Assembly: GCA_017856375.1 (NCBI GenBank)
Contig: JAFMFC010000006.1
Coordinates: forward strand, 1-46,137
Length of the DNA stretch: 46,137 bases
Direction: 5' to 3'
DNA from: Ilumatobacteraceae bacterium
Lineage (GTDB): Bacteria > Actinomycetota > Acidimicrobiia > Acidimicrobiales > Ilumatobacteraceae
The notes under the pieces were generated by a model. The model saw nothing but the letters and a program-made list of their open reading frames with translations, was not told the origin of the DNA and searched no databases. This document shows, in pieces, positions 14,950 to 41,046 of this stretch (position 1 is its first letter; the number at the start of each line of letters is the position of its first letter). The position numbers and the translations under genes are program-made.

Positions 14950-14986
14950 GCAACGAACAGTGTGGCAGATAAGCCGTATCAGATAG

Positions 14987-14998
14987 TAAGTACACTTA
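14987..14998 (+). promoter_or_regulatory. TAAG-N4-CTTA operator between xdh operon and marR
   Basis: TAAGTACACTTA lies in the 77-nt gap between the divergent FAD-subunit and marR genes. Its outer halves TAAG and CTTA are perfect complements around TACA. The same spaced core is the centre of the 20-bp palindrome at 8178. One site here could serve both directions: autorepression of marR and control of the molybdoenzyme. Promoter hexamers could not be assigned with confidence. Confidence 0.55.
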
Positions 14999-15026
14999 GA
15001 AATAGTGCAAAAGGCGGGATACGAAA

Positions 15027-16543: not shown

Positions 16544-17083
16544 TTACTGCGACTTGGGTCGAAAGCCGCTCATGCCCTCGCGAAGCTCGATCCACGGTCC
16601 ACCAATCAGTTCAATGCAGTAGGGCGTTGCCGGAAGCACGGCATCCAGACAGTCAGCTATTGCCGATGGTTTGCCGGGGAGATTGATGATCAGGCTGGAT
16701 CCCCGAATACCGGCGGTTTGGCGGGAGAGGATCGCGGTGGGAACGACGCGCAGGCTCACCTCACGCATAAGTTCGCCGTAGCCAGGCATCATTTTCTCAC
16801 ACACGTCATGCGTTGCTTCAGGTGTTACATCGCGCGGGGCCGGGCCGGTGCCGCCTGTGGTGACGATCAGTGAACATCCTTCATTGTCAGCCAAATCGAT
16901 CAACGTGGCCGCAATAGTCGAGCGCTCATCGGGGATCACTCGGGCCACGGGGGTCCAAGTTGAAGCGATGTGGCGCTCCAGATACTCGAGGATTGCTGGC
17001 CCTCCCTTGTCTTCGTACTCGCCGCGCGACGCCCGGTCCGAGACGGTGACGATTCCGACCTTCGCGATGCTTTCGTTCACCAT
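16544..17083 (-). CDS. mog: Molybdopterin adenylyltransferase MogA
   Basis: MogA adenylates molybdopterin before molybdate insertion, a late step of molybdenum cofactor synthesis. GIVTVSDRASRGEYEDKGGP at the N terminus, TGGTGPAPRDVTPEAT at about 76-91, and PTAILSRQ and NLPGKPSAI towards the C terminus match E. coli MogA closely. At 179 aa it is slightly shorter than the E. coli protein. It is the last gene of the cysD-cysN-cysC-sulfotransferase operon and overlaps the sulfotransferase by 7 nt, an unusual location. Two molybdoenzymes in this window, the xanthine-dehydrogenase type at 11.5-14.9 kb and the SoeA-like protein at 37 kb, would need its product. Confidence 0.92.
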   Translation of the reverse strand: MVNESIAKVGIVTVSDRASRGEYEDKGGPAILEYLERHIASTWTPVARVIPDERSTIAATLIDLADNEGCSLIVTTGGTGPAPRDVTPEATHDVCEKMMPGYGELMREVSLRVVPTAILSRQTAGIRGSSLIINLPGKPSAIADCLDAVLPATPYCIELIGGPWIELREGMSGFRPKSQ

Positions 17084-18039
17084 TGCAGAAGTTTCCTGTC
17101 GTAATTCTTGCCCTTAAATCGAAGTCGGAAGCCGATTGACTTCAAAATCTGAATGAGTCCGTAACGAAATCCCACTCGCGAAAAAGCCGACGTGGAAACG
17201 GTTGAAAGCCGTTCGGTCGTTTCTCGCAAATTGTTCAGAAGGCTTTGTTGGAGTTGGTCAAGAACGAGCGGAGTGGTCGACTCGGGGAAAGTCTTCTTCT
17301 CGAATCCATACCACTCGAAATCCCGCGCGTAGACCTCGGTTACGAGTCGGGCAGTTTCGGTGTCATACACCTGGTGAGGTTTGATTCCGATTCCACTGTT
17401 GAGCCGAGCAAGGGAAACGTTGGTGCCACCGCGCTTGTTCAACACGTCGGCGAGTTGCTGCAGCTCACCAGGAACATCCACCCGGGCGAGGTGGTGATAC
17501 TCGACTTGATCGGAATAGAGGGTGTTGTACTGCGGGCGGAAGTGGTCATCTTGAATGAAGGTCTCAAGATCTGCGTGCAATTCCTTGGCGAAGTGCTTGA
17601 ACGACGCAGTTACATCAACGCGACCATCTACGAGCACATCGGGGCAACGATCAAAAATTTCCTGCGGGGTGCCCGGCGCCCGGAGGAGCACCCGATTTTC
17701 CCACGATGAATATGCGCGTGCCAACGGGTCGCGCAATGCGCCTACCCTCAGCCATTCATCCGAGTTGAGGATTTCCCATCTCTTCTTGGGCTTCAAATCG
17801 AAGAAGCGGGTGAGCCCATGAACGAGGTAACTGTGGATGGTCTGCTCCTGGGAGATGTTCGGCGAGATCACGATTCGCTTTGCATCGTCGTTGTAGCAGC
17901 CCTCGATCTGAGACATCAGCAACTTGAGTGTGCTGCAAGCAACCTTGGTCGTTGGCACGTAGAGAACCTTGATTCGCGGAGCAACCAATGCATAGCCGAG
18001 CATTTCGGGAAGACTTGGCTGCTGCGGTGAAACAGTCAT
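17077..18039 (-). CDS. Sulfotransferase (Sulfotransfer_2-like, PAPS-dependent)
   Basis: This protein probably transfers sulfate from PAPS to a carbohydrate or other acceptor. PTTKVACSTLK at residues 29-39 is the 5'-phosphosulfate loop of the Sulfotransfer_2/HNK-1 group, and VGALRDPLARAYSSW is the 3'-phosphate binding segment. ATG 18039 overlaps the cysC stop as ATGA and gives 320 aa; the frame is open 15 codons further up but only inside cysC. No signal peptide or membrane segment is evident, so it probably acts in the cytoplasm. Direct coupling to cysC argues that PAPS made by this operon is used for sulfation and not only for assimilation. The acceptor is unknown. Confidence 0.82.
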   Translation of the reverse strand: MTVSPQQPSLPEMLGYALVAPRIKVLYVPTTKVACSTLKLLMSQIEGCYNDDAKRIVISPNISQEQTIHSYLVHGLTRFFDLKPKKRWEILNSDEWLRVGALRDPLARAYSSWENRVLLRAPGTPQEIFDRCPDVLVDGRVDVTASFKHFAKELHADLETFIQDDHFRPQYNTLYSDQVEYHHLARVDVPGELQQLADVLNKRGGTNVSLARLNSGIGIKPHQVYDTETARLVTEVYARDFEWYGFEKKTFPESTTPLVLDQLQQSLLNNLRETTERLSTVSTSAFSRVGFRYGLIQILKSIGFRLRFKGKNYDRKLLQW

Positions 18040-18632
18040 CGCACAGATGCCTTGCGGACTGCCTCGAACAAGGCCTCGACACACTGATCCACGCTTTCGC
18101 CGTGCGCTCCGAGCACGAAATCGGGTGAACTGGGTGCTTCGTATGGCGCGTCAACGCCGGAAAGTCCCGTCATCTCGCCATCGCGAACCTTGCGGTAGAG
18201 ACCCTTTGGATCGCGGTTCGCACATTCATCGATCGGGGTCGCCATGTGCACTTCGATGAATCTCAAACCAGTGCGCTCGTGCACGGCTCGTACTGCATCC
18301 CGACCCTCTTTGAAGGGGCTGATGATCGGCACGATCGTCACCACCCCGGTGTCGGCAAGGAGCGCAGCCACTTGACCAACGCGGCGTACATTTTCGCGAC
18401 GGTCATCATCTGAGAATCCGAGGTCTGCATTGAGCCCATGACGCAGGTTGTCGGCATCGAGAACTACCGCAAGCGTTCCCGCTTGGACGAGTTGACGTGC
18501 GAGTTCATGCGCCACGGTCGACTTTCCCGATCCTGAAAATCCGGTGATCCAAATGCTCATGCCCCGCAGACCGAACTTCTTCCAGCGATCATCGCGCGAC
18601 ACCGTCGGTTCGTGCCAGTGGGGCGCGTTCAT
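18036..18632 (-). CDS. cysC: Adenylylsulfate (APS) kinase
   Basis: CysC phosphorylates APS to PAPS. The P-loop GFSGSGKST spans residues 31-39, then LDADNLRHGLNADLGFS, ENVRRVGQVAAL, and the C-terminal DPKGLYRKVRDGEM and FTGL-like MTGLSGVDAPYE that shape the APS site. Length is 198 aa, standard for a free-standing kinase. Its ATG overlaps the cysN stop as ATGA, and its own stop overlaps the sulfotransferase start. It is not fused to CysN, unlike many bacterial systems. Confidence 0.95.
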   Translation of the reverse strand: MNAPHWHEPTVSRDDRWKKFGLRGMSIWITGFSGSGKSTVAHELARQLVQAGTLAVVLDADNLRHGLNADLGFSDDDRRENVRRVGQVAALLADTGVVTIVPIISPFKEGRDAVRAVHERTGLRFIEVHMATPIDECANRDPKGLYRKVRDGEMTGLSGVDAPYEAPSSPDFVLGAHGESVDQCVEALFEAVRKASVR

Positions 18633-19885
18633 GTGCGAGGCGAGAGCAGCATTCCCGCTGCTGCCGTCTGGCCGGTGGCCTCATCGACGAGGATGAAACA
18701 TCCGGTCACTCGGTTCTGGTGGTAATCGTCAAAAAACAATGGGGTAGTGGTATGCAGTGTGACGCGGCCGATTTCGTTCATCGCCAAACCATTGACGTTT
18801 GTTTCACGATGCAGATTCGAAATGTTGAGGCGATACATCACTTGATTCACCTTGGCTCGGGCAAGGCGCGTGGTGTGCTTGATCGAGTAGATCTTGCCGG
18901 GCTGGAGTGGGGCGGCATCGTCCATCCAACACAGCATCGCTTCAAGTTCCTGCGATGCTCTTGGTCGGTTGTTTGGGCGGCAAATCATGTCACCACGGGT
19001 GATCGAGAGATCGTCGGCCAACAACAGCGTCACTGCTTCGCCCGGCTCCGCCGACTCGCGTGGGCCAAGTGGCGAGTCGATTCCGGTGATCGTCGTGGTG
19101 AGCCCCGATGGCAACACCATCACGTCGTCGCCCACGCGCAGCACACCGCCAGCTACTCGGCCGGCATATCCGCGGTAGTCCGGGTACTCGGCTCGCTGAG
19201 GGCGAATCACGTACTGCACGGGAAAGCGCACGTCGATCCGATTTAAGTCACTCGCCGTATAGACGTTCTCGAGATGGTGAAGCAGCGTCGGCCCCTCGAA
19301 CCAGTCCATGTTGTTCGAGCGTGCCACGACGTTGTCGCCAGCCAGAGCGCTGATCGGCAGAAAAGTCACATCCTGCAGTTCCAGACGCGAGGCGAATTCT
19401 TCGAACTCGGTGCGGATTTCGTCGAATCGCCGCTGGTCGTAGCCCACAAGGTCCATTTTGTTCACGCAGATCACGAGATGCGGCACGCCGAGCAGTGATA
19501 CAAGCAGGCTATGACGACGAGTCTGTTCGACCACGCCGGTACGAGCATCGACGAGCACGATCGCCAAGTCAACGTTCGAAGCACCGGTGATCATGTTTCG
19601 GGTGTACTGAATGTGTCCGGGGCAGTCGGCAATGATGAAAGACCGCTTCGGGGTGGCGAAATAGCGATACGCGACGTCGATAGTGATCCCTTGTTCACGC
19701 TCAGCTCGTAGGCCGTCGGTGAGCAGCGACAGGTCTACGTAGTCGTCACCTCGACGCTTGCTGACGGCTTCAATGTGCTCGAGTTGGTCCTCGAAGATGC
19801 TTTTCGAGTCATAAAGCAGCCGGCCGATGAGCGTCGACTTTCCGTCATCTACTGAACCAACGGTGGCAAAGCGCAGCCGCTTCAT
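18629..19885 (-). CDS. cysN: Sulfate adenylyltransferase GTPase subunit
   Basis: CysN is the GTPase that, with CysD, adenylates sulfate to APS. P-loop GSVDDGKS is at residues 10-17, REQGITIDVAYRYF marks switch I, DCPGHIQYTRNM switch II (DCPG where translation factors have DTPG), and NKMDL the base-recognition motif. C-terminal elongation-factor-like beta barrels follow. The 418-aa length matches a CysN without a fused kinase. It overlaps cysD by one base (TGATG) and cysC by four. In the reverse direction the same chemistry could release sulfate from APS, but nothing here suggests that use. Confidence 0.95.
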   Translation of the reverse strand: MKRLRFATVGSVDDGKSTLIGRLLYDSKSIFEDQLEHIEAVSKRRGDDYVDLSLLTDGLRAEREQGITIDVAYRYFATPKRSFIIADCPGHIQYTRNMITGASNVDLAIVLVDARTGVVEQTRRHSLLVSLLGVPHLVICVNKMDLVGYDQRRFDEIRTEFEEFASRLELQDVTFLPISALAGDNVVARSNNMDWFEGPTLLHHLENVYTASDLNRIDVRFPVQYVIRPQRAEYPDYRGYAGRVAGGVLRVGDDVMVLPSGLTTTITGIDSPLGPRESAEPGEAVTLLLADDLSITRGDMICRPNNRPRASQELEAMLCWMDDAAPLQPGKIYSIKHTTRLARAKVNQVMYRLNISNLHRETNVNGLAMNEIGRVTLHTTTPLFFDDYHQNRVTGCFILVDEATGQTAAAGMLLSPRT

Positions 19886-20781
19886 CAGAAGTAGCCCGTT
19901 CGCTTGCGGTCTTCCATGCCGGCTTCCGACATGCGGTCATCGGCCCTCGTTGCGCCGCGTTCGGTGACGCGAGAGACGGCAGTCTCGGCCAAGATGTCGG
20001 CGACCGTCGAGGCGCTCGACTCGATGGCGGCGGTGCAGGTGGCGTCGCCCACGGTGCGGAAGCGCACCATCATTTCTTGCACCGGTGCGCCATCGTCGGC
20101 CCGCAGGAACTCGGTGATCGCCATCCACATGTTGTCGCGCTTGAACACGGGTCGCTTGTGCGCGTAGTAGATGGTGGGCAGGTCGATCTTGAACTCGGCG
20201 ATGAACGTCCAAATGTCGAGTTCCGTCCAGTTGGACAACGGGAACACTCGGAAGTGTTCGTCGGGTTTGTGGCGACCGTTGTAGATGCCCCACAACTCGG
20301 GGCGTTGGTTCTTTGGGTCCCATTGGCCAAATGAGTCCCGGTGCGAATAGACACGCTCCTTGGCGCGAGCCCGTTCCTCATCCCGGCGAGCACCACCGAA
20401 GACGGCATCGAAGCGATGCTCGGCAATTGAATCCAGCAGGGTCACGGTCTGCAAGGTGTTGCGGGAGGCGCGGGGGCCGGTGGCATCGGCCACCTTTCCC
20501 GCATCGATGGAGGCCTGCACCGACCCCACGATCAGTTGCACCCCCATTTCGGCGACACACCGGTCGCGAAACTCAATCACCTCGGGGAAATTGTGTCCGG
20601 TGTCAATGTGCATCACCGGAAAGGGAATGCGGGCAGGGGCGAAGGCCCGGGCAGCCAGATGGAGCATGACTACAGAGTCCTTGCCACCTGAGAACAACAG
20701 GACCGGGCGCTCGAACTCGGCGGCGACCTCCCGAATGATGGTGACCGACTCGTCGATCAGTTCGCCGAGCGCCGATTTCAT
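19885..20781 (-). CDS. cysD: Sulfate adenylyltransferase small subunit
   Basis: CysD is the PP-loop ATP pyrophosphatase that forms APS from ATP and sulfate. The PP-loop SGGKDS lies at residues 31-36; HIDTGHNFPEVIEFRD, GARRDEERARAKER and FPLSNWTELDIW are family hallmarks. It is 298 aa. It is the first gene of a five-gene minus-strand operon and is divergent from the second BMP importer, with a 151-nt gap holding both promoters. Confidence 0.95.
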   Translation of the reverse strand: MKSALGELIDESVTIIREVAAEFERPVLLFSGGKDSVVMLHLAARAFAPARIPFPVMHIDTGHNFPEVIEFRDRCVAEMGVQLIVGSVQASIDAGKVADATGPRASRNTLQTVTLLDSIAEHRFDAVFGGARRDEERARAKERVYSHRDSFGQWDPKNQRPELWGIYNGRHKPDEHFRVFPLSNWTELDIWTFIAEFKIDLPTIYYAHKRPVFKRDNMWMAITEFLRADDGAPVQEMMVRFRTVGDATCTAAIESSASTVADILAETAVSRVTERGATRADDRMSEAGMEDRKRTGYF

Positions 20782-31131: not shown

Positions 31132-31971
31132 TTGTTGAGTAAGTTGGTCGCAATGCCACCTCTTGGAGTTGCGATAGCCGCTGGACTTACATCCGGTGTT
31201 GGCACCCTTGGTGGACTTGGTGGAGCGATCATGCTCGTTCCATTTTTGGTGCTCACGGGAATGCCGGTGAGCCAAGCGGCACCCCTTGGTCTGGTGTCGG
31301 TGGTTGCGGCCTCGTCGGCGGCTGCGCGCAGACAAATGACTGAACACACCACGAATCATCGTCTTGGGGTTGTCACGGAAACTGCATCGACAGCCGGTGC
31401 CGTTGCAGGGGCTTTTGCTGCAGGACTGATCTCCGATGTGGCGCTCACCTACATGCTTGCTGCAGTCGCAGTCTTTGCTGCGCTTGCCGGAGGTAAGCGC
31501 AAGGGCATGAGGTGGAAGCCTGATCCCTCCGTCTCGAAGGACGAGGTTGGCGAGTGGGTGGGATCCTTGAACGGCGCCTATTCACTCAACGGTGATGTGA
31601 TCCCGTACTTCCCGAAGCGAGTTGGGGCTGGGTTGGTGGCCATGGGCATCTCGGGAGTCGTGACAGGTATTTCGGGGGTAGGTGGGGGGTTCATCAAAAC
31701 TCCGGCCAAGAGCGAGTTGATGCATGTTCCAGTGAAGGTCTCCTCGAGCACTACGACGTTCTCCATTGGCATCACTGCGGCAGCGGCGTTGTTGGTGAAG
31801 GCGATGCACGGCGATGTCGATGTCGAACTGGCCGCGATGGTCATCCTGGGCTCCCTCGTTGGAGGGGTGGTCGGTTCGCGGGTGCAGTCAAGGCTTTCGC
31901 CGCCAACCGTCCGTAGGTTTCTCTCTGTGCTGCTTCTCGTCGTTGCTGCGATCCTCGTGGCCCGCGCATGA
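31132..31971 (+). CDS. TSUP-family (TauE/SafE) sulfite/organosulfonate exporter-like protein
   Basis: This inner-membrane protein of the TSUP family likely exports sulfite or a sulfur anion. The two family half-repeats are visible: GVGTLGGLGGAIMLVPFLVLTGMP followed by QAAPLGLVSVVAASS in the first, and TGISGVGGGFIKTPAKSELMHVPVKVS-like sequence with SSTTTFSIGITAAAALL in the second. About eight helices are expected in 279 aa. The start may be TTG 31132 or 31135, or ATG 31153; all keep the first helix, and none has a strong ribosome binding site. DUF1634 follows with an ATGA overlap, a pairing common for TSUP genes. Its place beside sulfite-producing enzymes suggests sulfite or thiosulfate as cargo. 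Confidence 0.85.
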   Translation: MLSKLVAMPPLGVAIAAGLTSGVGTLGGLGGAIMLVPFLVLTGMPVSQAAPLGLVSVVAASSAAARRQMTEHTTNHRLGVVTETASTAGAVAGAFAAGLISDVALTYMLAAVAVFAALAGGKRKGMRWKPDPSVSKDEVGEWVGSLNGAYSLNGDVIPYFPKRVGAGLVAMGISGVVTGISGVGGGFIKTPAKSELMHVPVKVSSSTTTFSIGITAAAALLVKAMHGDVDVELAAMVILGSLVGGVVGSRVQSRLSPPTVRRFLSVLLLVVAAILVARA

Positions 31972-32264
31972 GTCAGCGGGTTGACCCCACGCAGGCGGCA
32001 GCTGAGGAAAAGGCCGGGCAGGTGGTCTGGCGCGCGTTGCTGCTCGGCGCGGGTCTTGCCTTGATCGGAGTCCTGCTGCCATCCCGGTTCGGCAGACCAT
32101 TAGAGATTGCCGCCATCGCCATCGTCACCGCCATTCCACTCCTGCGGGTTGTCTGGTTGATCAGGCGTTGGACGAATCTCCGAGATTTGAAATACGTGCG
32201 TTGGGCGGTACTGCTGCTGTTGCTCGTTGCCGTCGGCCCCGCGCTTGCATTTCTCGGCAACTAG
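31968..32264 (+). CDS. DUF1634-family membrane protein
   Basis: This 98-aa protein has three hydrophobic segments and fits DUF1634, a small membrane family that usually follows TSUP exporters. It is coupled to the TSUP gene by ATGA and may be an accessory subunit. Its stop region overlaps the converging gntR gene by four bases. The family has no assigned function. Confidence 0.75.
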   Translation: MSQRVDPTQAAAEEKAGQVVWRALLLGAGLALIGVLLPSRFGRPLEIAAIAIVTAIPLLRVVWLIRRWTNLRDLKYVRWAVLLLLLVAVGPALAFLGN

Positions 32265-33019
32265 CGAGACGTGAAATCTGACGCGGTAGATCCACCGCCC
32301 CAGGTGGTCACGAAGGTGTAGGCATCACCTCGCACGATGGTCTCACGCCATTCGAGCGGGCCGTCTTGGTGTTCGGTGTAACGCTCGAGAAAGAACACCG
32401 CTTGTTTCGCATCGATGCCGAGTAGCTGTCGAGTCTCCGTGCTCGGGAGTTGCGGGTGAATTCGCTCCCAGCCACTCGTCGGTTGAATGCCCACCAATCT
32501 TGCCAGTTCGGCGTAAACGGCAGTATGGCGGAAGTCCACTTCGAACAAAGGCTTCACCAAGTTGGCTGGCATCCAAATGTCATCAACTGCAAATGGTGTG
32601 CCATCTACCAAGCGCAGTCGACGCAGGTGGAAGAACTGTTGCTTTCCGTCCGTTTGCAGGTGTTCGGCAACCGCGACGTTCTGCACACGGTCGAGAGCGA
32701 GCACCTCACTGTCTTGGCGGTATCCCTGATCCTCAATCGAGCGAAAGAGGCTGTACAACGACCCGATTCGTTGCTCAAGTGCGATTGGCTCGACGAAACT
32801 GCCTCGTCCTCGTTGGCGTTGTAAAACTCCCGAATCGCGCAGCTCCCTCAGAGCCTCGCGAACCGTGTGTCGACTAACTCGGTAGTGCGAGACGAGTTCC
32901 CGGTCGGATGGGAAACCGGAAAGGAACTCGCCCGCGTCGAGGCGCCGTCGAACGTCGTCGCGAACCTGCTCCCACAGTGGCGACGATGCGTCGCGACGAA
33001 CCTTGAATTTGGCCGCCAC
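32261..33019 (-). CDS. GntR-family regulator with UTRA domain (HutC subfamily)
   Basis: The N-terminal winged helix (PSDRELVSHYRVSRHTVREAL, then GVLQRQRGRGSFV) is joined to a UTRA ligand-binding domain from about residue 85, including HLRRLRLVDGTPFAVDDIW and VFFLERYTE. Length is 252 aa. The start is GTG 33019, with a weak GGGAC upstream, 23 nt after the YeeE-like gene, so it is probably the third gene of that minus-strand operon and could control it and the divergent persulfide dioxygenase operon through the inverted repeats at 34046-34084. UTRA ligands are small metabolites; a sulfur compound would be new and is only inferred. A sulfur-responsive Cys pair typical of BigR or CsoR is not seen. 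Confidence 0.87.
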   Translation of the reverse strand: MAAKFKVRRDASSPLWEQVRDDVRRRLDAGEFLSGFPSDRELVSHYRVSRHTVREALRELRDSGVLQRQRGRGSFVEPIALEQRIGSLYSLFRSIEDQGYRQDSEVLALDRVQNVAVAEHLQTDGKQQFFHLRRLRLVDGTPFAVDDIWMPANLVKPLFEVDFRHTAVYAELARLVGIQPTSGWERIHPQLPSTETRQLLGIDAKQAVFFLERYTEHQDGPLEWRETIVRGDAYTFVTTWGGGSTASDFTSR

Positions 33020-33042
33020 TCAGTCGTCCCGAACTTGTTGCG

Positions 33043-33522
33043 TCAGTTGCCGACGCCAACCGTGGTGCGGTGTTCGCCGTCTCCTTGGGTGACGGCGCCT
33101 CCCGCTGCTCGGCTTGTCTGGGCATCACGAAGCCCCAGGCCGACGAACAAACCGGCGATGGTGACCGCAGCGAGTCCTGCGCCAGAGGCGAGCATCACAA
33201 GAGCGGGTGCCGGGCACGTACCGGAGACAGCCCAACCAATGCCAAAGATGGCGCCACCCACGACATGGTGCTTCTGCACCTTCGATCGGGAGAGCGACAG
33301 TGTTCCGGCCAAGACCGTCTTCACCTTGGCTCGTTCGAAGATGGCGAGCAATGGAAGGGAGGTGCCGATCGCCAAACCCATCAACCCGAACACGTCGAAT
33401 TCCTCGAGTGACAGCATGTTGTGGATGGTGGTGTACTCGTGCAAGTTCGCTGCGCCGAGCACGAATCCGAAGCCTGCTCCAAAGAGGAGCCCGATGATGT
33501 TGAATTTTGTCGAGCTTTTCAC
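33043..33522 (-). CDS. YeeE/YedE-like sulfur transporter half (DUF6691-type)
   Basis: This 159-aa membrane protein has about four helices and the signature GIGWAVSGTCPAPALVMLASG near residue 100, with the Cys that marks YeeE/YedE thiosulfate/sulfur transporters. The protein resembles the C-terminal half of YeeE, and the gene upstream encodes the other half, so together they make one transporter, as in PmpA/PmpB pairs. GTG 33522 has AGGAGG four nt upstream. The loop carries charged residues FERAKVK towards the cytoplasm. Substrate is thiosulfate or another sulfur species by family; sulfide or sulfite are alternatives. Confidence 0.82.
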   Translation of the reverse strand: MKSSTKFNIIGLLFGAGFGFVLGAANLHEYTTIHNMLSLEEFDVFGLMGLAIGTSLPLLAIFERAKVKTVLAGTLSLSRSKVQKHHVVGGAIFGIGWAVSGTCPAPALVMLASGAGLAAVTIAGLFVGLGLRDAQTSRAAGGAVTQGDGEHRTTVGVGN

Positions 33523-33531
33523 GGTTCCTCC

Positions 33532-34014
33532 TCAGACCACTTGATTGATGATGAACGTGGTGGCTACGGCTGATGCCATAAAGGTCATCATGGCGGCCCA
33601 ACTGGCGGGAGATCGTTGCGCGGTTCCGCAGATTCCGTGTCCAGAGGTGCATCCTCCAGACATACGTGCGCCGTATCCCATCACCACTGCGCCAACGAAG
33701 ATGACCAGTGCAGCGACGGGGAGCGACAGCCCGAAGTTGCCTTCGCCCGATTGAGTGAGGATGTCGTAACCGCTTCTTGGATCGAACCCAGTTTCCTTCA
33801 AGGAGACTGCGATAAAACCACCGAGCGCAATCCCGACGAAGTACCACACGCGCCACACCACGGCACCAGGAACTCGTCGAACCGCTTTCGATGTCTCTGC
33901 GTAGGCACCGGTGGCCCCAAGAGGCTGGTTGGTGAAGAGGAAGAATCCCACCACCAAGAGTCCAAGTAGCGGCCCCGCAATGAACCACGGGAGACGGTCA
34001 GGTAACAGATCCAT
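33532..34014 (-). CDS. YeeE/YedE-like sulfur transporter half (N-terminal type)
   Basis: This partner half, 160 aa, has the signature GYGARMSGGCTSGHGICG near residue 125 with two conserved Cys, plus about four hydrophobic segments. I chose ATG 34014, which has GGGGGT just upstream and begins MDLLPDRLPWFIAGPLLG; the frame is open to 34083 but without a ribosome binding site. It is the first gene of the operon with the second half and gntR, and is divergent from the persulfide dioxygenase gene, an arrangement seen in other bacteria where PmpAB-like genes sit with a beta-lactamase-fold hydrolase. Confidence 0.84.
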   Translation of the reverse strand: MDLLPDRLPWFIAGPLLGLLVVGFFLFTNQPLGATGAYAETSKAVRRVPGAVVWRVWYFVGIALGGFIAVSLKETGFDPRSGYDILTQSGEGNFGLSLPVAALVIFVGAVVMGYGARMSGGCTSGHGICGTAQRSPASWAAMMTFMASAVATTFIINQVV

Positions 34015-34045
34015 GAGAACCCCCAATTCGCTCGCCACCTGGCGA

Positions 34046-34084
34046 TACCGAAACGGTAACACAGGCCAGAAATGTCCGTACATT
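34046..34084. promoter_or_regulatory. Two inverted repeats in the divergent promoter of the sulfur locus
   Basis: TACCG-AAA-CGGTA (34046-34058) and AATGT-CCGT-ACATT (34071-34084) are both inverted repeats with perfect five-base arms. They lie 14 nt apart in the 104-nt gap between the first YeeE-like gene and the persulfide dioxygenase. Such sites fit a dimeric regulator such as the GntR protein encoded at 32261. Short repeats like these can occur by chance. A good ribosome binding site AAAGGAG precedes ATG 34119. Confidence 0.45.
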
Positions 34085-34118
34085 TTGTTATCTTTGGCTC
34101 AACCCGAAAGGAGCCTCG

Positions 34119-35519
34119 ATGTTTTTCAGGCAGTACTACCTCGCGTGTTTGTCTCATGCCTCGTATCTGATTGGCGACACCAAGACCGGTCGGGCAGTGG
34201 TGGTCGATCCACAGCGCGACATCTCGCAGTACTTGGAGGATGCGAAGGAGAACGGTCTCACTATCGAGCGTGTCATCGAAACTCACTTTCACGCCGACTT
34301 TCTTTCAGGTCACCTCGAGTTACAGAAGGCGACTGGCGCAGCCATTTCGTACGGCACGGTCGGTGCCGAGCGGGCCGAGTTTCCTGTCACGGCGATGAAG
34401 GATGGCGAGCGACTTTCGCTCGGAGAAGTGACTCTTGAAGTGATGGACACGCCCGGGCACACTCCCGAGTCGATCAGCATCATCGTGTACGACAAGAACG
34501 ACGTGCCCTACGGCGTGTTGACCGGCGACACGCTCTTCATCGGTGATGTTGGTCGTCCCGACCTGCTGTCGTCGTTCGGCGCAACCGCCGAGGACCTTGG
34601 TCGGCAGCTGTATCACTCGTTGCATGATCGGTTGCTGAAGCTGCCGGACGAAACGAAGGTGTATCCGGCGCACGGCGCAGGTTCATCCTGTGGAAAGAAT
34701 CTTTCGAGTGAGACGGTCTGCACCATCGGCAAGCAGAAGCGCACGAACTACGCACTGGCGCCGATGACCGAGGAAGAATTCGTGAAAGTCGTCACCGAGG
34801 GACAGAACGCCGCTCCGCTGTACTTTCCATTTGCCGCAGTCACTAACCGCAAGATGCGGGAAGTGTTCGATGAGGCAGGTGAGATTCGCTCGATGTCGAT
34901 CGACGAAGTGCTGCAGGCCCAGAAAGACGGTGCAGTGGTGGTCGACACTCGTGAGCCGATGGACTACGCCACTGGTCATTTGCTTGGTTCGATCAACGTG
35001 GGTTTGTCCGGTCGATTCGCCGAATACACGGGTGAAGTGATCACATCGACCACACCGCTTGTGTTGTTGTGCCCCGAGGGCACGGAAGCCGAAGCTCGGG
35101 TTCGATTGGCCCGCATTGGATTCGACAAGGTCATCGGCGCATTGCGCACCCCAGAGAAGGTGTTCATTGAGCGACCAGAGCTCGTGGGTAAGGCATCGCG
35201 CCTCACCGTGGAGCAGCTGAAGATCAGTCGGAATGAAGTGAAGGGTCTGCAGGTGGTGGATGTTCGAGGTCCAGGTGAAGTCGCGAACGGCATGGTGCCC
35301 GGCGCAAAGCACGTGCAATTGCCTTCCCTCATTAACGATTACACGACGTTGGATCCGCAGGCGCCGACGGTGGTGTATTGCGCAGGTGGTTACCGCTCGA
35401 GCATCGCAGCGAGTTTCCTGAGGCAACGTGGATTCGTCGATGTGTCAGACTTGCTCGGTGGTTTTGGTGCTTGGTCGCAAGCGGGGGAAGAAGTCGCAGT
35501 AGTGACTTCTGCTCACTGA
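34119..35519 (+). CDS. Persulfide dioxygenase-like metallo-hydrolase with two rhodanese domains
   Basis: The N-terminal metallo-beta-lactamase fold (1 to about 240) resembles ETHE1-type persulfide dioxygenases that turn glutathione or low-molecular-weight persulfide into sulfite. It has THFHADFLSGH (His56, His58, Asp60), His114 in DTPGHTPES, LTGDTLFIGDVGRPDL with Asp137, and YPAHGAGSSCG (His185). Iron ligands by analogy are His56, His114 and Asp137. Rhodanese domain one follows from about 255 with Cys318 in LLCPEG, and rhodanese two from about 365 with active loop CAGGYRS (Cys421). Both have a loop Cys. The 466-aa layout parallels CstB and PRF fusions, which pass sulfane sulfur between domains. 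It heads the operon with the SoeA-like enzyme 14 nt or less apart from each next gene. Confidence 0.87.
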   Translation: MFFRQYYLACLSHASYLIGDTKTGRAVVVDPQRDISQYLEDAKENGLTIERVIETHFHADFLSGHLELQKATGAAISYGTVGAERAEFPVTAMKDGERLSLGEVTLEVMDTPGHTPESISIIVYDKNDVPYGVLTGDTLFIGDVGRPDLLSSFGATAEDLGRQLYHSLHDRLLKLPDETKVYPAHGAGSSCGKNLSSETVCTIGKQKRTNYALAPMTEEEFVKVVTEGQNAAPLYFPFAAVTNRKMREVFDEAGEIRSMSIDEVLQAQKDGAVVVDTREPMDYATGHLLGSINVGLSGRFAEYTGEVITSTTPLVLLCPEGTEAEARVRLARIGFDKVIGALRTPEKVFIERPELVGKASRLTVEQLKISRNEVKGLQVVDVRGPGEVANGMVPGAKHVQLPSLINDYTTLDPQAPTVVYCAGGYRSSIAASFLRQRGFVDVSDLLGGFGAWSQAGEEVAVVTSAH

Positions 35520-35532
35520 GAAGCGACAAATC

Positions 35533-37059
35533 ATGACTCGTTACGCCTTCTTGATCGACCAAGACACCTGCATCGGGTGTCATGCCTGCACCGTCGCCTG
35601 CAAATCGGAGCACGATGTTCCACTGGGCGTGAATCGCACGTGGGTGAAATACATCGAGAAGGGGGAGTTTCCCGATTCTCGACGTTTCTATTCGGTCAAT
35701 CGCTGCAATCACTGCGAAGACGCGCCCTGTGTTTCCATCTGTCCGACGACCGCGCTGTATCACCGCGAAGACGGCATCGTCGATTTCAACGACTCCAACT
35801 GCATCGGCTGCAAGTCGTGCATGAATGCATGCCCATACGACGCCCTCTACATCAACCCGGAGACACAGACGGCGCACAAGTGCAATTTCTGTTCACATCG
35901 TGTCGAGCTCTCGTTGGAGCCAAGTTGCGTGGTGGTGTGCCCGACTCAATCGATCATCGCGGGCGACATAGAGGACCCGAACTCAAAGATCTCCCAGATG
36001 CTCGGTCGATATGACACCAAGGTGCGTGCGCCAGAGCAGGGCACCAAGCCACACGTGTTCTACAAAGGTGCCGACGAGGCAGCGCTCGATCCATTGCGCA
36101 CGAAGATCCTCGAAGACGGAATGATCTGGGCGGAGACCACGGAACATCATCCGACGATTCCCGTCTCCAACCCATCGATCGATTCCAATGTGGTGGCGCG
36201 CACTGCGTATACGACGAATCACCCGATGGCATGGAAAGGCAAAGTGTCGTCATACCTCGTCACCAAAGCAATCGCAGGTGGTGCGTTGTTGGTGGCCGGA
36301 TTGCTCGCGTTGCTTGGCCATGCTGATGAGCAGGCATTCATCGGCGTCTATGCACCCACCGTTGCGCTGGTGTTCGCGGCGATCACCGGTGTGATCCTGA
36401 TCTGGGACCTCAAGCAACCCCTCCGCTTCTTCTACATCTTCACGCGACCGCAATGGGGCTCGTGGCTGGTGAAGGGTTCGTTCATCTTGCTTGCCTTCGG
36501 AGGCGTCGGCTCGATGTGGTGGCTCGGTGGTGTGCTGGCAAACGAATCGCTGATCACCGCAATGGCCGTTCCTGCGATGGTGCTCGGTGCGGCAACTGCT
36601 GGGTACACCGCCTGGTTGTTCGCTCAGTGCGAAGGTCGTGATTTGTGGCAAACGCCGTTGCTCCTGCCCGTCCTTGTTTCGCAGGCTGTTGCTGCCGGCG
36701 CGGCAGCACTGATCATTCCCATTTCGTTCTTCAGCGTGCCCGACTCTGCAGTGAACGCGTTGTTGTGGACGCTGTTCGGCGGCATCGTCGCTGAACTGGT
36801 TTTCGTCATCATCGAAGTCACGTCGCACGGATCAGTGTCGGTGGAAATGGCAACTGCAGCCATGGTGAGCGGTAAGTACCGCGGACGCTTCTGGTTCGGT
36901 CTTGTTGGCGGCATGGTGGTCGCAGGCGGTCTCGCTCTGGTGGCCGCCCTTACTGGTGAGACTTCGATTGCAGTTGCAGCGAGTGTCCTCGCAGTAGCGG
37001 GTATCGCTGCCTACAAGGATGCGTTCGTCAGGGCTGGCCAGTCGGTGCCGTTGAGCTGA
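35533..37059 (+). CDS. Fused four-cluster ferredoxin / NrfD-like membrane subunit (SoeB-SoeC-like)
   Basis: This is a fusion of the electron-transfer and membrane subunits of a molybdopterin oxidoreductase of the CISM type. Residues 1 to about 150 contain 16 Cys in four groups (13,16,19,23; 58,61,66,70; 90,93,96,100; 117,120,132,136), enough for four [4Fe-4S] clusters. Residues about 155-235 form a linker with QGTKPHVFYKGADEAA, a stretch usual at the end of stand-alone ferredoxin subunits. From about 236 come NHPMAWKGKVSSYLVTKAIAGG and about eight to nine hydrophobic helices of an NrfD/DmsC-like quinone-interacting anchor. No Tat or Sec signal is present, so the ferredoxin part faces the cytoplasm, as in SoeABC. 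Length 508 aa. The gene precedes the catalytic subunit by 10 nt. Confidence 0.88.
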   Translation: MTRYAFLIDQDTCIGCHACTVACKSEHDVPLGVNRTWVKYIEKGEFPDSRRFYSVNRCNHCEDAPCVSICPTTALYHREDGIVDFNDSNCIGCKSCMNACPYDALYINPETQTAHKCNFCSHRVELSLEPSCVVVCPTQSIIAGDIEDPNSKISQMLGRYDTKVRAPEQGTKPHVFYKGADEAALDPLRTKILEDGMIWAETTEHHPTIPVSNPSIDSNVVARTAYTTNHPMAWKGKVSSYLVTKAIAGGALLVAGLLALLGHADEQAFIGVYAPTVALVFAAITGVILIWDLKQPLRFFYIFTRPQWGSWLVKGSFILLAFGGVGSMWWLGGVLANESLITAMAVPAMVLGAATAGYTAWLFAQCEGRDLWQTPLLLPVLVSQAVAAGAAALIIPISFFSVPDSAVNALLWTLFGGIVAELVFVIIEVTSHGSVSVEMATAAMVSGKYRGRFWFGLVGGMVVAGGLALVAALTGETSIAVAASVLAVAGIAAYKDAFVRAGQSVPLS

Positions 37060-37069
37060 GGGGAAGCAG

Positions 37070-39985
37070 ATGTCACTTCGCGAAGAGATCACCGCAGCGG
37101 GAATGGGGGAGCTGTCGAAGCTCCTACCCGGGTCGTCGCTCACCAACTACCCACCGGTTGAGAAATGGCAGGACTGGGTGGAGCTCGATTCGAAGGACTG
37201 GGCACACGGGAAGAAGACCAAGCGCCGCTTCAGCCTGATTCCCACCACCTGCTTCAACTGTGAGGCGTGTTGTGGCCTGCTCGCCTATGTCGACAAGGAA
37301 ACGGGTGAGATCCAGAAATTCGAAGGCAACCCGCACCACCCAGCCAGTCGCGGTCGCAACTGCGCCAAGGGTCCGGCAACGATCAACCAGGTTCACGATG
37401 CCGATCGCATTCTGTTCCCGCTCAAGCGCGCTGGTAAGCGTGGTGAAGGCAAGTGGGAGCGCATCGAGTGGTCGCAGGCGCTCGAAGAAATCGGTTCACG
37501 TATTGGCAAGGCTTTCAAAGAAGGTCGCCACAAGGAAGTGATGTACCACGTGGGTCGTCCCGGTGACGACAGCTACATGGAGCGCGTCTTGCATGCATGG
37601 GGGTTGGACGGGCACAACAGTCACACCAACATCTGTTCATCGGGTGCGCGCGTTGGATACGCGGCATGGATGGGCTTCGACCGCCCCTCTGGCGATCACG
37701 CGAATGCCAAGGTGATCTTCCTCATCTCGTCACATCTCGAAGCTGGCCACTACTTCAACCCTCACGCACAGCGAATCATCGAAGGCAAGATGCGTGGCGC
37801 AAAGGTGATCTGTGTTGACCCGCGTCTTTCGAACACGGCTTCGATGAGCGATTACTGGTTGCCGGTGTGGCCGGGCACCGAAGCGTTCCTCTGCCTCGCC
37901 ATTGCACGACTGCTTCTGCAAAACGGAACTTGGGATCGCGAATTCGTCAGGCGCTGGGTGAACTGGGACGTGTTCTTGCGAGAAACACGCCCAGACCTCG
38001 AGTGCACGTTCGAGAACGTCGACAAGGCGCTGATCGATCTGTATGCGGAGTACACGCCCGAGAAGGCGGAGCACATCTGTGGCATCGATGCCCGCAAGGT
38101 TCGTGAGATCGCCGAACACATTGGTCGCGCGGTTCCCGGTCGACTCTCCACGCACAACTGGCGTGCATCTGCGGCCGGCAACGAGGGCGGTTGGCAGACG
38201 TCACGCACCTTGTTCTTCCTCAATGTGCTCACCGGTTCGGTAGGCACCGAGGGTGGCACCAGCCCGAACGGTTGGAACAAGTTCATCCCCGTTCCACCGA
38301 AGAATCCGCATCCCCACGGCGATTGGAACGAATTGACGTGGCCGAAGGAATACCCGCTCACGCACCATGAACTTTCGATTCTGTTGCCACATTTCCTGAA
38401 AGAGGGAAGGGGCAAACTCGATACCTACTTCACACGTGTGTACAACCCGATCTGGACGAATCCGGACGGTTTCACCTGGCTCGAAGCATTGACGAATGAG
38501 GACTTGGTGGGGTGCCACGTTGCTCTCACGCCGATCTGGAGTGAGACAGCATGGTTCGCCGACTACGTGTTGCCGATGGGTGTCGCTTCCGAGCGTCACG
38601 ACGTGGCGTCGTACGAAACACACATGGGGCGATGGATCGGCTTCCGTCAGCCGGTGATGAAGGTCTACGCGGAGCAGCAGGGAAAGACGATCAACCGCAC
38701 GTACGAGGCCAACCCTGGCGAAGTGTGGGAAGAACACGAGTTCTGGATCGACCTGTCGTGGAAGATCGATCCCGACGGTTCGCTCGGTATCCGGGAACAC
38801 TTCGAGTCGATTGCCAAGCCCGGAACTCCGTTGTCGATCGATGAGTACTACTCGCACCTGTTCGAGAACTCGATCCCTGGTTTGCCGGATGCGGCCAAGG
38901 CAGAAGGTTTGACCCCACTGCAGTACATGCGCAAACACGGCGCTTTTGCGATCCCGGGCAACCAGGAGAAAGTGCACGAACGAGTGGTCACCCCATCGGA
39001 GCTCGAGGCAGCCAAGGCAGTTCGTGACGCAGAGGGCGTCTATCGAGTGCCGGGTACAGCGGGAATGCACGACACCATCGACGATGTGCACGGCCACATG
39101 CCGTTTATCGGTGATGGTTCGCTCGGTGTGGACATTGAAGGAGAAATTCGTTTCGGTTTCCCCACGCCGTCGCGAAAGTTGGAGTTGTTCTCGCCGACGA
39201 TGCGCGACTGGGGTTGGCCCGAGTACTCGCTGCCGACGTGGATTCCTTCCCACGTGCACTGGGAGAAACTCGACTTCGAACGAGGTGAGCGAATTCTTCT
39301 TCCGACGTTCCGCTTGCCAACGCTGATCCACACTCGATCTGCGCAGTCGAAGTGGCTGGCCGAACTCAGTCACGCTCATCCGTTGTGGATGCACCCAAGC
39401 GATGCGGAGAAGTTGGGCATCGAACCCAATGGCTTGGTGCGTGTCACCACCCAGACGGGTTACTTCGTCATTCGCGCGTGGCGCACGGAAGGAATTCGCC
39501 CCGGTGTGGTTGCGGCTTCACATCACATGGGTAGGTGGCGCCTGGATGAGCAGACCGGTACGCCCGGTTGGACCGCTGGTGTCGCAGCTCTCTCCGGCCC
39601 CGGTGTCGGTTATGGCGCGGGCGATGCGTCGAGCGACGGTCAGTGGCATCTCAATCAGATCCATGGTGTGCAGACATTCGAATCGGGGGATCCCGACTCG
39701 CAGCGCGTCTGGTGGTCGGATGCAGGTGTGCACCAAAACCTCACGTTCCCGGTTCAGCCTGACCCGATCTCGGGAATGCATTGCTGGCTGCAGCACGTGA
39801 CGGTGTCAGCCGCACAGCCGGGTGATCGCTACGGAGACATCGCTGTCGATACCGGCAAGTCGATGCAGGTGTTCCACGAGTGGCTAGCCAAGACACGCCC
39901 GGCTCCGGGGCCAGGCGGCCTGCGACGTCCGTTGCACTTCGCTCGTCCGGTCAAGCCGCTCGCCACTGCCTACAAGATGCCGTGA
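37070..39985 (+). CDS. Molybdopterin oxidoreductase catalytic subunit (SoeA-like sulfite dehydrogenase candidate)
   Basis: This is a DMSO-reductase-family catalytic subunit, 971 aa. The [4Fe-4S] motif reads CFNCEACCG (Cys61, Cys64, Cys68) with Cys98 in RGRNCAKGP; Cys189 in SHTNICSSGAR is a candidate molybdenum ligand. Segments VDPRLSNTASMSDYWLPVWPGTE and GRMRLDEQ-like MGRWRLDEQTGTP belong to the two guanine-dinucleotide cofactor regions. There is no Tat signal at the N terminus, so it is cytoplasmic, matching SoeA and unlike most polysulfide, tetrathionate and thiosulfate reductases. GGGGAAG precedes ATG 37070. With an upstream sulfite-forming enzyme, oxidation of sulfite to sulfate with electrons to quinone is the best fit. 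Reduction of a sulfur compound cannot be excluded from sequence alone. Confidence 0.88.
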   Translation: MSLREEITAAGMGELSKLLPGSSLTNYPPVEKWQDWVELDSKDWAHGKKTKRRFSLIPTTCFNCEACCGLLAYVDKETGEIQKFEGNPHHPASRGRNCAKGPATINQVHDADRILFPLKRAGKRGEGKWERIEWSQALEEIGSRIGKAFKEGRHKEVMYHVGRPGDDSYMERVLHAWGLDGHNSHTNICSSGARVGYAAWMGFDRPSGDHANAKVIFLISSHLEAGHYFNPHAQRIIEGKMRGAKVICVDPRLSNTASMSDYWLPVWPGTEAFLCLAIARLLLQNGTWDREFVRRWVNWDVFLRETRPDLECTFENVDKALIDLYAEYTPEKAEHICGIDARKVREIAEHIGRAVPGRLSTHNWRASAAGNEGGWQTSRTLFFLNVLTGSVGTEGGTSPNGWNKFIPVPPKNPHPHGDWNELTWPKEYPLTHHELSILLPHFLKEGRGKLDTYFTRVYNPIWTNPDGFTWLEALTNEDLVGCHVALTPIWSETAWFADYVLPMGVASERHDVASYETHMGRWIGFRQPVMKVYAEQQGKTINRTYEANPGEVWEEHEFWIDLSWKIDPDGSLGIREHFESIAKPGTPLSIDEYYSHLFENSIPGLPDAAKAEGLTPLQYMRKHGAFAIPGNQEKVHERVVTPSELEAAKAVRDAEGVYRVPGTAGMHDTIDDVHGHMPFIGDGSLGVDIEGEIRFGFPTPSRKLELFSPTMRDWGWPEYSLPTWIPSHVHWEKLDFERGERILLPTFRLPTLIHTRSAQSKWLAELSHAHPLWMHPSDAEKLGIEPNGLVRVTTQTGYFVIRAWRTEGIRPGVVAASHHMGRWRLDEQTGTPGWTAGVAALSGPGVGYGAGDASSDGQWHLNQIHGVQTFESGDPDSQRVWWSDAGVHQNLTFPVQPDPISGMHCWLQHVTVSAAQPGDRYGDIAVDTGKSMQVFHEWLAKTRPAPGPGGLRRPLHFARPVKPLATAYKMP

Positions 39986-41046
39986 CTCGCGATCTCGCCG
40001 AACGGGCGACCAATCGTGCCGCATTCGCAGGAATGGCGGGCGCGCTGCTGCTCAGTGAGCCGGGTGCGGCACTCGGTGACGCACTTCGAAAACTTCCGCA
40101 CTTGGCCAGCGTGGTGGAGTCGATCTCGTCGATCGAATACGAGCGCGTATTTCTCCGCGGTGCGCCACCCTACGAAAGCATCTTTCGCTCGGACTCGGGT
40201 CAGCGCGGTGGGTCGGTGTCGGCAAGAGTGGTCGACTCCTATGCGGAGATCGGTTTCACCGAACATGAAATCGGTGGGTGGCGTGTCGCAGGGCCCGATC
40301 ATTTGGGACTTGAGTTGCGCGCTCACGCCCATTTGGTGGCTCTTGAGGCCGCAGCGTGGCGCGACGAGCGGCCGGACGAGGGCGCCCGAATGGTGGAGTC
40401 GCAGCGACGATTCTTTGCCGACCATTTGGCGTGGTGGGCCGAGATCGCACTTGAAGCGTTGCGAGAGGCAGCTGGGGATGGCGCGTATGCCGATCTCATC
40501 GAGGAAATCAAGGCATTTGTCGCAGAGGAGATCGACCTGTTGCGACCTGCACCGTTGCTCGAAGGAGAGATAGTTCAACCGACTCCTCATCCGGGACCTC
40601 TGGGCCCATCTCGTTTGGCGCGTCACATGCTTGCTCCGTCTCGCAGTGGCGTGTGGCTTTCGTCGAACAGAATTGCCGAGTCGGCCCACACCCTCGGGTT
40701 TCCATGGCGACCGATGGACGGACGCAACAACCTCACGCCACTGGTGGCAGCAGCGAATGATGCCGGTGAACTCGATGTGCTGGTGGCACCGTGGCTCGAT
40801 CTCGCTCAAGCCGAATTGAAGAGGCATCGCGAACGGGCCCAGGAACAACCTGGTGCCGAGCGTGTATGGAGACACATGGCCTCACTTGCGGAAGCGACGA
40901 TGGGAATCCTGTCGACGCTGAGCTCATCGTTGAATCTAGATACCGATGCAGAGATCATCGTTCGTGTTTCTGGTTCCGACCGACTGGACATGGTGCGCCG
41001 CCTCGACCAAACGGGGCTCAACATCGAGATCATCGAGGAGTTGTAG
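39982..41046 (+). CDS. TorD/DmsD-like molybdoenzyme chaperone
   Basis: This helical protein, 354 aa, fits the TorD-like chaperone family that assists cofactor loading of DMSO-reductase-family enzymes. The N-terminal half has RVFLRGAPPYESIFRSD and the later AEIALEALREAAGD, consistent with the PxxxPYES-like family signature, and the second half adds about 150 residues ending in VSGSDRLDMVRRLDQTG. It is longer than classical TorD (about 200 aa). GTG 39982 overlaps the catalytic subunit stop as GTGA, so I do not use the longer open frame that begins at 39880 inside the previous gene. The position argues for service to the SoeA-like enzyme. Confidence 0.75.
   Translation: MTRDLAERATNRAAFAGMAGALLLSEPGAALGDALRKLPHLASVVESISSIEYERVFLRGAPPYESIFRSDSGQRGGSVSARVVDSYAEIGFTEHEIGGWRVAGPDHLGLELRAHAHLVALEAAAWRDERPDEGARMVESQRRFFADHLAWWAEIALEALREAAGDGAYADLIEEIKAFVAEEIDLLRPAPLLEGEIVQPTPHPGPLGPSRLARHMLAPSRSGVWLSSNRIAESAHTLGFPWRPMDGRNNLTPLVAAANDAGELDVLVAPWLDLAQAELKRHRERAQEQPGAERVWRHMASLAEATMGILSTLSSSLNLDTDAEIIVRVSGSDRLDMVRRLDQTGLNIEIIEEL

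Follow-up and report, generated by a model that had tools for sequence, protein, structure and literature searches.

The sulfite:quinone oxidoreductase SoeABC has been described in Allochromatium vinosum and Aquifex aeolicus (PMC8076601, PMC10100899, PMC6335251), is called 'universally present' in purple and green sulfur bacteria by a review citing Dahl 2013 (PMC8232776), and was extended by one genome paper to signal-less complexes of Sulfobacillus on the same type of argument as that used below (PMC4378227). A review of NrfD proteins expects its membrane subunit SoeC in an inverted, cytoplasm-facing arrangement, unlike the other NrfD proteins (PMC8076601). Modules with a persulfide dioxygenase (PDO) are also already known, of both the yeeE-pdo and the PDO-TauE kind (PMC7315123, PMC5823870, PMC7533328, PMC9918477), among them yeeE-yedE-pdo2 in Acinetobacter and Serratia and the bigR operons with a dioxygenase in Xylella and Agrobacterium (PMC7315123, PMC5823870). 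We analysed a contig of 46,137 nucleotides (JAFMFC010000006.1, C58 in our numbering) from an Ilumatobacteraceae bacterium; this whole contig is called the window and belongs to an assembly of 1.67 Mb with a completeness of 86.9%. Nine genes at 31132-41046 begin with a TSUP permease gene and a 98-aa partner on the forward strand, continue with a convergent gntR gene and two YeeE half-transporter genes on the reverse strand and end, divergently from the YeeE pair, with genes for a dioxygenase-rhodanese-rhodanese fusion, a four-cluster ferredoxin/NrfD fusion, a 971-aa molybdoenzyme and a TorD-type chaperone. We propose, with a probability of about 0.7, that this locus is an inducible sulfane-sulfur oxidation unit ending in a respiratory sulfite dehydrogenase.

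The predicted molybdoenzyme complex shares with SoeABC a molybdopterin subunit (A) with one N-terminal [4Fe-4S] motif and a candidate cysteine ligand of molybdenum, a part for four further [4Fe-4S] clusters (B) and an NrfD anchor (C). In an alignment of 26 rows the 16 cluster cysteines of the four-cluster part are invariant, as are C61, C64, C68 and C98 (cluster) and C189 of the catalytic subunit, the last being the candidate Mo ligand by its place in the sequence. The AlphaFold model of the anchor has eight long, well-scored helices, the Fe-S part being poorly scored, and Foldseek matched the anchor fold to PsrC and ActC. No twin-arginine translocation (Tat) signal was seen by eye in the window catalytic subunit: the sole RR pair in its first 60 residues (52-53) adjoins the cluster motif and is followed by no signal-type stretch. 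Inspected in the same way, the comparison proteins PhsA, TtrA, DmsA, FdnG and an Azoarcus protein have Tat-like N-termini. Since the Fe-S part runs on into the first helix, the charges indicate on which side of the membrane this part lies. Lysines and arginines on the N-terminal side of the eight anchor helices stand at 13:0 to those on the other side in the window protein and at 360:21 over the 26 aligned related rows, all 26 being skewed the same way in a projected count, although these related rows amount to one inherited pattern seen many times. For the window lineage this count replaces that of a crude helix predictor, which found 7 helices rather than 8 in 10 of the 26 rows and gave 24 of 26 skewed rows. 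The comparison anchors were counted in the cruder way only and were reversed (TtrC 6:12, with 9 helices predicted; Azoarcus NrfD 2:10; DmsC 4:8); their catalytic partners begin with Tat-like signals. The charge pattern of the window anchor is, as far as a prediction goes, that of the cytoplasm-facing arrangement expected for SoeC, with the catalytic and Fe-S parts probably in the cytoplasm. From this topology and the genomic context described below, we read the molybdoenzyme as a cytoplasmic sulfite:quinone dehydrogenase working like SoeABC. Separate subunits in the order A-B-C are a trait of the SoeABC type enzymes. In contrast, B and C are one protein and the gene order is BC-A, both in the window and in 20 Actinomycetota context loci. 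We treated the A-B-C order as a trait of the type enzymes and not as a defining one, and thus file the window enzyme as one that works like SoeABC rather than as a proven member.

In order to examine the genes that accompany this enzyme, we surveyed its neighbourhoods with fixed score limits and a reach of 9 kb, counting as dioxygenase-rhodanese-like any match of at least 100 bits to three probes; the counts thus express similarity to probes, two of which, from Rhodococcus jostii RHA1, are annotated only as MBL-fold proteins. Three sets were compared: 60 similarity-found loci, 20 loci from an even draw of Actinomycetota (picked by contig room, not at random, from 40 positives) and 20 control loci, chosen and not random, among other molybdoenzyme matches of relatives in the order with room around them. 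The tally leaves out the contigs of L110, L111 and L115, which are the same as L021, L022 and L024 and are still included in an earlier tally. Dioxygenase-rhodanese-like genes lay near the enzyme in 18 of the 60 and 9 of the 20 loci, SQR-like genes in 6 and 6, SulP genes in 8 and 12, and DsrE genes in 2 and 5; at least one of a dioxygenase, an SQR-like gene, DsrE or the taurine set was present in 28 and 14 loci respectively. All of these counts were 0/20 in the controls. Three genomes of the window's own family (G034, G192, G103) have a run of sulP-pdo-sqr-BC-A-gntR; in RHA1 the order is dsrE-tusA-BC-A, close to dioxygenase-like genes, and in G020 it is BC-A-TorD-PDO.

A second context was found in a marine branch of Acidimicrobiia, whose ten loci have TetR (10), phosphotransacetylase (9), class III aminotransferase (7) and a taurine-type ABC ATPase with permease (4). 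In L025-L033 and L035 the taurine-type uptake and degradation genes lie upstream of the putative sulfite dehydrogenase, and Xsc is found elsewhere in the genomes with about 1000 bits. Xsc exceeded its curated cut-off in all nine taurine-branch genomes tested (L027 not included) and in none of nine other distinct genomes, the window's own included (G061 repeats G030). Xsc releases sulfite from sulfoacetaldehyde. In another actinobacterial genome (L142) an Xsc-like gene (48%) adjoins the enzyme gene. Two unlike pathways that share sulfite thus appear to converge on the enzyme. Sulfite is proposed as its substrate because of these two different sulfite-making contexts together with the predicted cytoplasmic topology, and the suggestion of an initial annotation of this DNA, that a SoeA-like enzyme oxidises sulfite here, gains support.

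The distribution of another sulfite route is consistent with this assignment. Among 95 genomes positive for the FMO protein, which we take as a mark of green sulfur bacteria, 46 carry the molybdoenzyme lineage: 1 of 11 with AprA and 45 of 84 without (Fisher p 0.008, uncorrected for kinship and completeness; three rows with only 173-180 bits were left out). AprA stands for the other cytoplasmic route of sulfite, and rarity of the enzyme in its presence is what one would expect if both serve sulfite oxidation. No SQR match was found in the window's own genome, nor in G030 and G072, which have the same locus type, nor in G020; this fits import of sulfane sulfur here and oxidation of sulfide in the sulP-sqr type.

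Several observations weigh against the sulfite dehydrogenase. None of the counted sulfur genes was found in 32 of the 60 and 6 of the 20 loci, many of them on short contigs. Taurine genes are missing next to the window enzyme and a dioxygenase is missing from the taurine loci, so that each of the two contexts on which we base the substrate is incomplete. The SQR probe stayed below its curated cut-off, and the taurine transporter, aminotransferase and phosphotransacetylase are best matches below theirs, which makes their names probable. In a genome 86.9% complete, a missing SQR or Xsc is weak evidence. Neither AprA nor the enzyme was found in 39 of the 95 FMO-positive genomes. An unfused anchor from Sulfurovum has 14:5 on the N-terminal side (crude count, 9 helices predicted), so that such a charge pattern also occurs outside the fused lineage. 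Finally, the catalytic subunit (model with a mean predicted local distance difference test score of 80.0) has ArrA and PsrA as its closest solved sequences and folds and PhsA as its best NCBIfam score, and all of these are reductases. With PhsA, PsrA and ArrA as nearest characterised relatives, the molybdoenzyme might be a quinol-driven reductase of thiosulfate, polysulfide or tetrathionate, the dioxygenase disposing of its products. The compared PhsA and TtrA are exported by Tat, however, whereas the window protein has no signal and opposite anchor charges; the Xsc/taurine context would deliver sulfite and no sulfane sulfur; and a persulfide dioxygenase requires O2. We consider such a reductase very improbable. 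The scores of the catalytic subunit against curated NCBIfam cut-offs fell short for ArrA (124 of 1600 bits), TtrA (91 of 1750) and PhsA (196 of 694), and an arsenate, tetrathionate or thiosulfate reductase was set aside on these scores, the missing Tat signal and the anchor charges. The catalytic subunit does not group with tetrathionate reductase in the trees described below (built without ArrA, reference branches saturated), in agreement with its low ArrA and TtrA scores and as the initial annotation expected.

The putative sulfite dehydrogenase genes follow a dioxygenase fusion of CstB-like architecture. The fusion matches 3tp9 over its full length (query 1-456, E 4.5e-87) and 3r2u collinearly (query 1-448, E 8.6e-59), the latter being, as we assume, staphylococcal CstB. 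A metallo-beta-lactamase (MBL) dioxygenase domain and two rhodanese domains are thus predicted in the same order throughout, and a TauE-type permease lies nearby, as in the cst operon of Staphylococcus aureus. The motif THFHADF starts at residue 55, and cysteines were noted at Cys191, Cys318 (CPEGTE) and Cys421 (rhodanese loop CAGGYR). Unlike CstB, in which the inner rhodanese domain lacks a catalytic cysteine, the window protein has Cys318 in this domain, where 3r2u and 3tp9 have no cysteine at the aligned position; GntR replaces CstR, and the genes that come next are those of the putative sulfite dehydrogenase. The window also shares the YeeE pair and the persulfide dioxygenase with yeeE-yedE-pdo2, and the dioxygenase and TauE-type exporter with the bigR operons, but these have BigR where the window has GntR and, in the excerpts available, no sulfite dehydrogenase (PMC7315123, PMC5823870). 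The CsoR-PDO-rhodanese-TauE circuit of Streptomyces coelicolor likewise stands for actinobacterial persulfide oxidation with sulfite as product; it differs in its CsoR-like regulator and in that sulfite is thought to be exported (PMC7533328).

On this basis, we propose the following sequence of events. Judging from annotation, reduced sulfur would enter through the YeeE pair, most probably as thiosulfate or in another carrier of sulfane sulfur. By analogy with their families, the rhodanese domains would transfer the sulfane sulfur to a small thiol, whereby thiosulfate would free one sulfite, and the dioxygenase domain with O2 would turn the persulfide into sulfite. The molybdoenzyme, matured by the chaperone, would then turn sulfite into sulfate in the cytoplasm, at the inner face of the membrane, a step to which the topology and the context in many genomes both point, and the electrons would reach quinone at the fused NrfD anchor by way of five [4Fe-4S] clusters. 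TSUP, again from its annotation, would export excess sulfite or product as a relief, and the GntR-UTRA protein would control the unit through the operator described below, as the comparison of loci suggests. The same genes could instead serve detoxification and not energy gain: the unit would clear excess persulfide and sulfite from the cell's own organosulfur, quinone electrons would be a by-product and TSUP the main exit. The Streptomyces circuit (PMC7533328) and the bigR and FisR operons (PMC5823870, PMC7315123) have been described as serving homeostasis or detoxification, and the genome is small and the locus accessory. On the other hand, a membrane molybdoenzyme with its chaperone would be costly if TSUP alone could export sulfite, and SQR-like, PDO and enzyme genes stand in one run in relatives. 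We judge detoxification to be a serious alternative, at somewhat less than even odds. If the respiratory sulfite dehydrogenase is real, many heterotrophs could supply their respiratory chain from sulfite that derives from taurine, sulfide and thiosulfate.

The regulator was examined together with its predicted operator, AAATGTCCGTACATTT, which lies at 34070-34085 in the divergent promoter, occurs as one exact copy only in the genome and is identical in two related loci, L021 and L063. In these a second, near copy precedes the TSUP orthologue; a copy upstream of TSUP was looked for in the window and not found. A window search at 3 mismatches gave a count no better than chance, and the operator takes its weight from the comparison of loci. 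With at most one mismatch and on both strands, a 12-base core was found in 12 of 17 GntR loci, in 2 of 63 other enzyme loci (those off the GntR list, two of which, L037 and L067, have weak GntR matches) and in none of the 20 controls. The core had been read from the window, L021, L063, L024, L041 and L061, which are not independent tests; it occurs at the same limit in 7 of the 11 GntR loci not used for reading it. Of the 21 sites, all but the one at L041:5622 are no more than about 150 bases away from where a pdo, sulP, tauE-like or BC gene starts. In L112, L126 and L128, which have one-direction sulP-pdo-sqr-BC-A-gntR runs, operator copies stand upstream of sulP, and in L112 and L126 also of pdo.

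The 17 GntR regulators contain 0 to 4 cysteines and the window regulator none, so that a thiol switch like that of BigR and CstR in the bigR and cst operons is unlikely. We tentatively suggest, and would give it somewhat less than one chance in two, that a GntR-UTRA protein without any shared cysteine, acting through this operator, controls a persulfide-to-sulfate regulon in Actinomycetota and senses a bound sulfur metabolite instead of the thiol redox state. A search for 'GntR' with 'persulfide dioxygenase' in open-licence papers returned no such regulator in the abstract openings. If confirmed, such a regulator would stand for a novel type of control over sulfane-sulfur oxidation, with sulfite, thiosulfate or an organosulfur compound as candidate ligands, it would tie persulfide dioxygenase directly to a respiratory sulfite dehydrogenase of the fused-subunit kind, and the operator would give direct access to the inducer. 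Small organic molecules are the usual ligands of GntR-UTRA regulators, and a regulator without cysteine, next to a sister branch that resembles a taurine system, would also suit an organosulfur compound (a sulfonate or thiol acid) as both inducer and true substrate, inorganic sulfane sulfur being only an intermediate. The scanned genes of the window locus include no recognisable sulfonate gene, however, and the YeeE pair with the PDO fusion is an inorganic sulfane-sulfur set; we regard an organosulfur substrate as rather unlikely and retain inorganic sulfane sulfur as the proposed one.

All nine genes recur with unchanged order and orientation in L021 (a contig of G030, same family) and L063 (Ilumatobacteraceae HM.50), which argues against a chance assembly, even if these two loci are near-identical in the enzyme and count for little more than one case. 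An orthologue of the enzyme at 64% identity or more is present in 7 of 61 relatives (the G026 copy is split over two contigs), and within the window's own genus in 2 of 23 genomes, its own included, so the locus is accessory. The unit, which the initial annotation expected to persist in relatives, is whole in L021 and L063, but its enzyme was not found in most genomes of the genus. Orthologues of the chaperone come after the enzyme gene in L021, L022, L023 and L063. In 18 of the 60 loci (L037, L044, L047 and L074 among them) the enzyme gene has an Mrp/NBP35-type ATPase gene in its vicinity, in most cases immediately after it; these loci have no TorD-type match above the limits, and the ATPase may take the place of the chaperone in maturation.

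The enzyme lineage is common and not peculiar to the window organism. In named genomes 52 loci were found, spread over Actinomycetota, Chloroflexota, Planctomycetota, Bacteroidota and Myxococcota, with two labelled Acidobacteria, and plasmids of R. jostii RHA1, Thermomicrobium roseum and haloarchaea carry the lineage; the idea of an actinobacterial peculiarity was rejected on this spread. The REEB477 contig (L022), labelled Acidobacteria, gave the same match as C21 of G020, a genome of the window's own genus, and its record name is probably wrong. L045 lies in G460, a genome labelled Bacteroidetes, whose phylum has 66 matching genomes out of 395 at E <= 1e-50; three of these matches are weak, and the 46 FMO-positive carriers are included in the 66. 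These phyla go beyond the Proteobacteria, Clostridia and Aquificae listed for SoeC in a survey of NrfD anchors, which in its available excerpts lists no such enzyme for Actinomycetota (PMC8076601). In the even draw of Actinomycetota the enzyme was found at E <= 1e-200 in 40 of 396 genomes, so that, if our reading is right, about one actinobacterial species in ten holds a cytoplasmic sulfite dehydrogenase, which annotation seeking separate soeB and soeC genes may miss.

In two trees, each with 54 lineage rows, these rows clustered as a single clade, separate from PhsA, TtrA, DmsA and the Azoarcus protein, whose own branches are saturated. The first left out the partial loci L064-L068 and L070 and the Sulfurovum protein; the second left out FdnG and 19 further relatives and added 19 rows from the Bacteroidota phylum. 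The phylogeny that the initial annotation had called for is in this way carried through for PhsA and TtrA, SoeA, PsrA and ArrA being outside both trees. Authentic SoeA was sought in plasmids with the C-terminal half of the enzyme (60 of 194 matches listed) and with E. coli DmsC (60 of 129), and none was recognised among the matches listed, which belonged to the same lineage, to Sulfurovum (32-38%) and to the Tat-bearing Azoarcus protein. The regions H44, H46, H94, H100 and H114 were discarded as SoeA candidates, being by annotation without adjacent ferredoxin and anchor genes of that kind, and a search with the family PF14589 gave 0 matches, controls included. An unfused relative of the enzyme lies at 7800-11300 of L077, a Sulfurovum mangrovi plasmid; it is spread over two frames, has separate ferredoxin and NrfD genes and is missing from the gene table.

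Green sulfur bacteria are reportedly endowed with a complex 'PSRLC3' that has a fused PsrBC. The 10 FMO-positive loci in the tree have a continuous fused-BC match alongside, and their enzymes are 55-57% identical to that of the window. Within 5.7-kb stretches these loci gave no PDO, YeeE or GntR match, and some have TSUP-like matches. The lineage was not found in 49 of the 95 FMO-positive genomes, and so may not be the enzyme meant by the review of sulfur bacteria (PMC8232776); it is possible that work on green sulfur bacteria has already described the fused enzyme, with a different name. The available excerpts of the open-licence literature, including papers on SoeABC, taurine and sulfite (PMC10100899, PMC6303296, PMC12345210, PMC6335251, PMC12625764, PMC11279179, PMC11883979), contain no description of the window assembly in Actinobacteria. 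The parts are of known kinds; what we regard as new is their combination under a GntR operator.

Table 1. Features of the sulfur locus in the window, with predicted functions
Feature	Position	Strand	Evidence and remarks
TSUP / TauE-SafE family permease, candidate exporter of sulfite (or sulfonate, thiosulfate)	31132..31971	+	PF01925, 125.7 bits
98-aa small membrane-type protein coupled to TSUP	31968..32264	+	DUF1634 weakly, 14.8 bits (cut-off 27.5)
GntR-UTRA transcription regulator	32261..33019	-	PF07702 and PF00392; no Cys
YeeE/YedE half-transporter, DUF6691 type	33043..33522	-	PF20398, 37.2 bits; PF04143 (Sulf_transp), 27.7 bits; both above cut-off
YeeE/YedE half-transporter	33532..34083	-	PF04143 (Sulf_transp), 48.8 bits
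Predicted GntR operator	34070..34085		in divergent promoter
Persulfide dioxygenase-rhodanese-rhodanese fusion, CstB-like architecture	34119..35519	+	metallo-beta-lactamase and two rhodanese stretches
Fused electron-transfer/membrane subunit, SoeB-SoeC-like	35533..37059	+	four [4Fe-4S] and 8-helix NrfD anchor
Molybdopterin-type catalytic subunit, probably cytoplasmic, SoeA-like	37070..39985	+	Fe4S4, molybdopterin and dinucleotide-binding domains
TorD/NarJ-type chaperone	39982..41046	+	PF02613, 46.6 bits; open frame from 39880

All nine genes are long open frames in their annotated places; their Pfam and NCBIfam matches are given in Table 1. Their earlier assignments stand for eight; the DUF1634 name of the 98-aa protein, which falls short of its cut-off, is a guess, and the protein adjoins TSUP in L021 and L063 too, at 45% identity. 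As two half-size Sulf_transp/DUF6691 proteins with cysteines, the YeeE proteins would form a sulfur-compound transporter pair of the YeeE/YedE type. The start of the first YeeE gene is probably near 34014 rather than at 34083, since the conserved operator occupies the bases up to 34085, and the chaperone probably starts with the GTG at 39982 and not at 39880, overlapping the stop of the 971-aa gene by 4 bases. G+C content is 0.57-0.61 along the whole contig. Elsewhere in the window, at 16544-20781, genes for an APS kinase, a sulfotransferase and a MoCF_biosynth (MogA-type) protein share a run with genes resembling cysN and cysD; this run would serve sulfate activation, probably for sulfation, about 10 kb from the putative sulfate-producing locus. 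At 14137-15051 lies a gene for the FAD subunit of a molybdenum hydroxylase of the CO-dehydrogenase type, flanked on both sides by genes resembling ABC sugar/nucleoside transporters.

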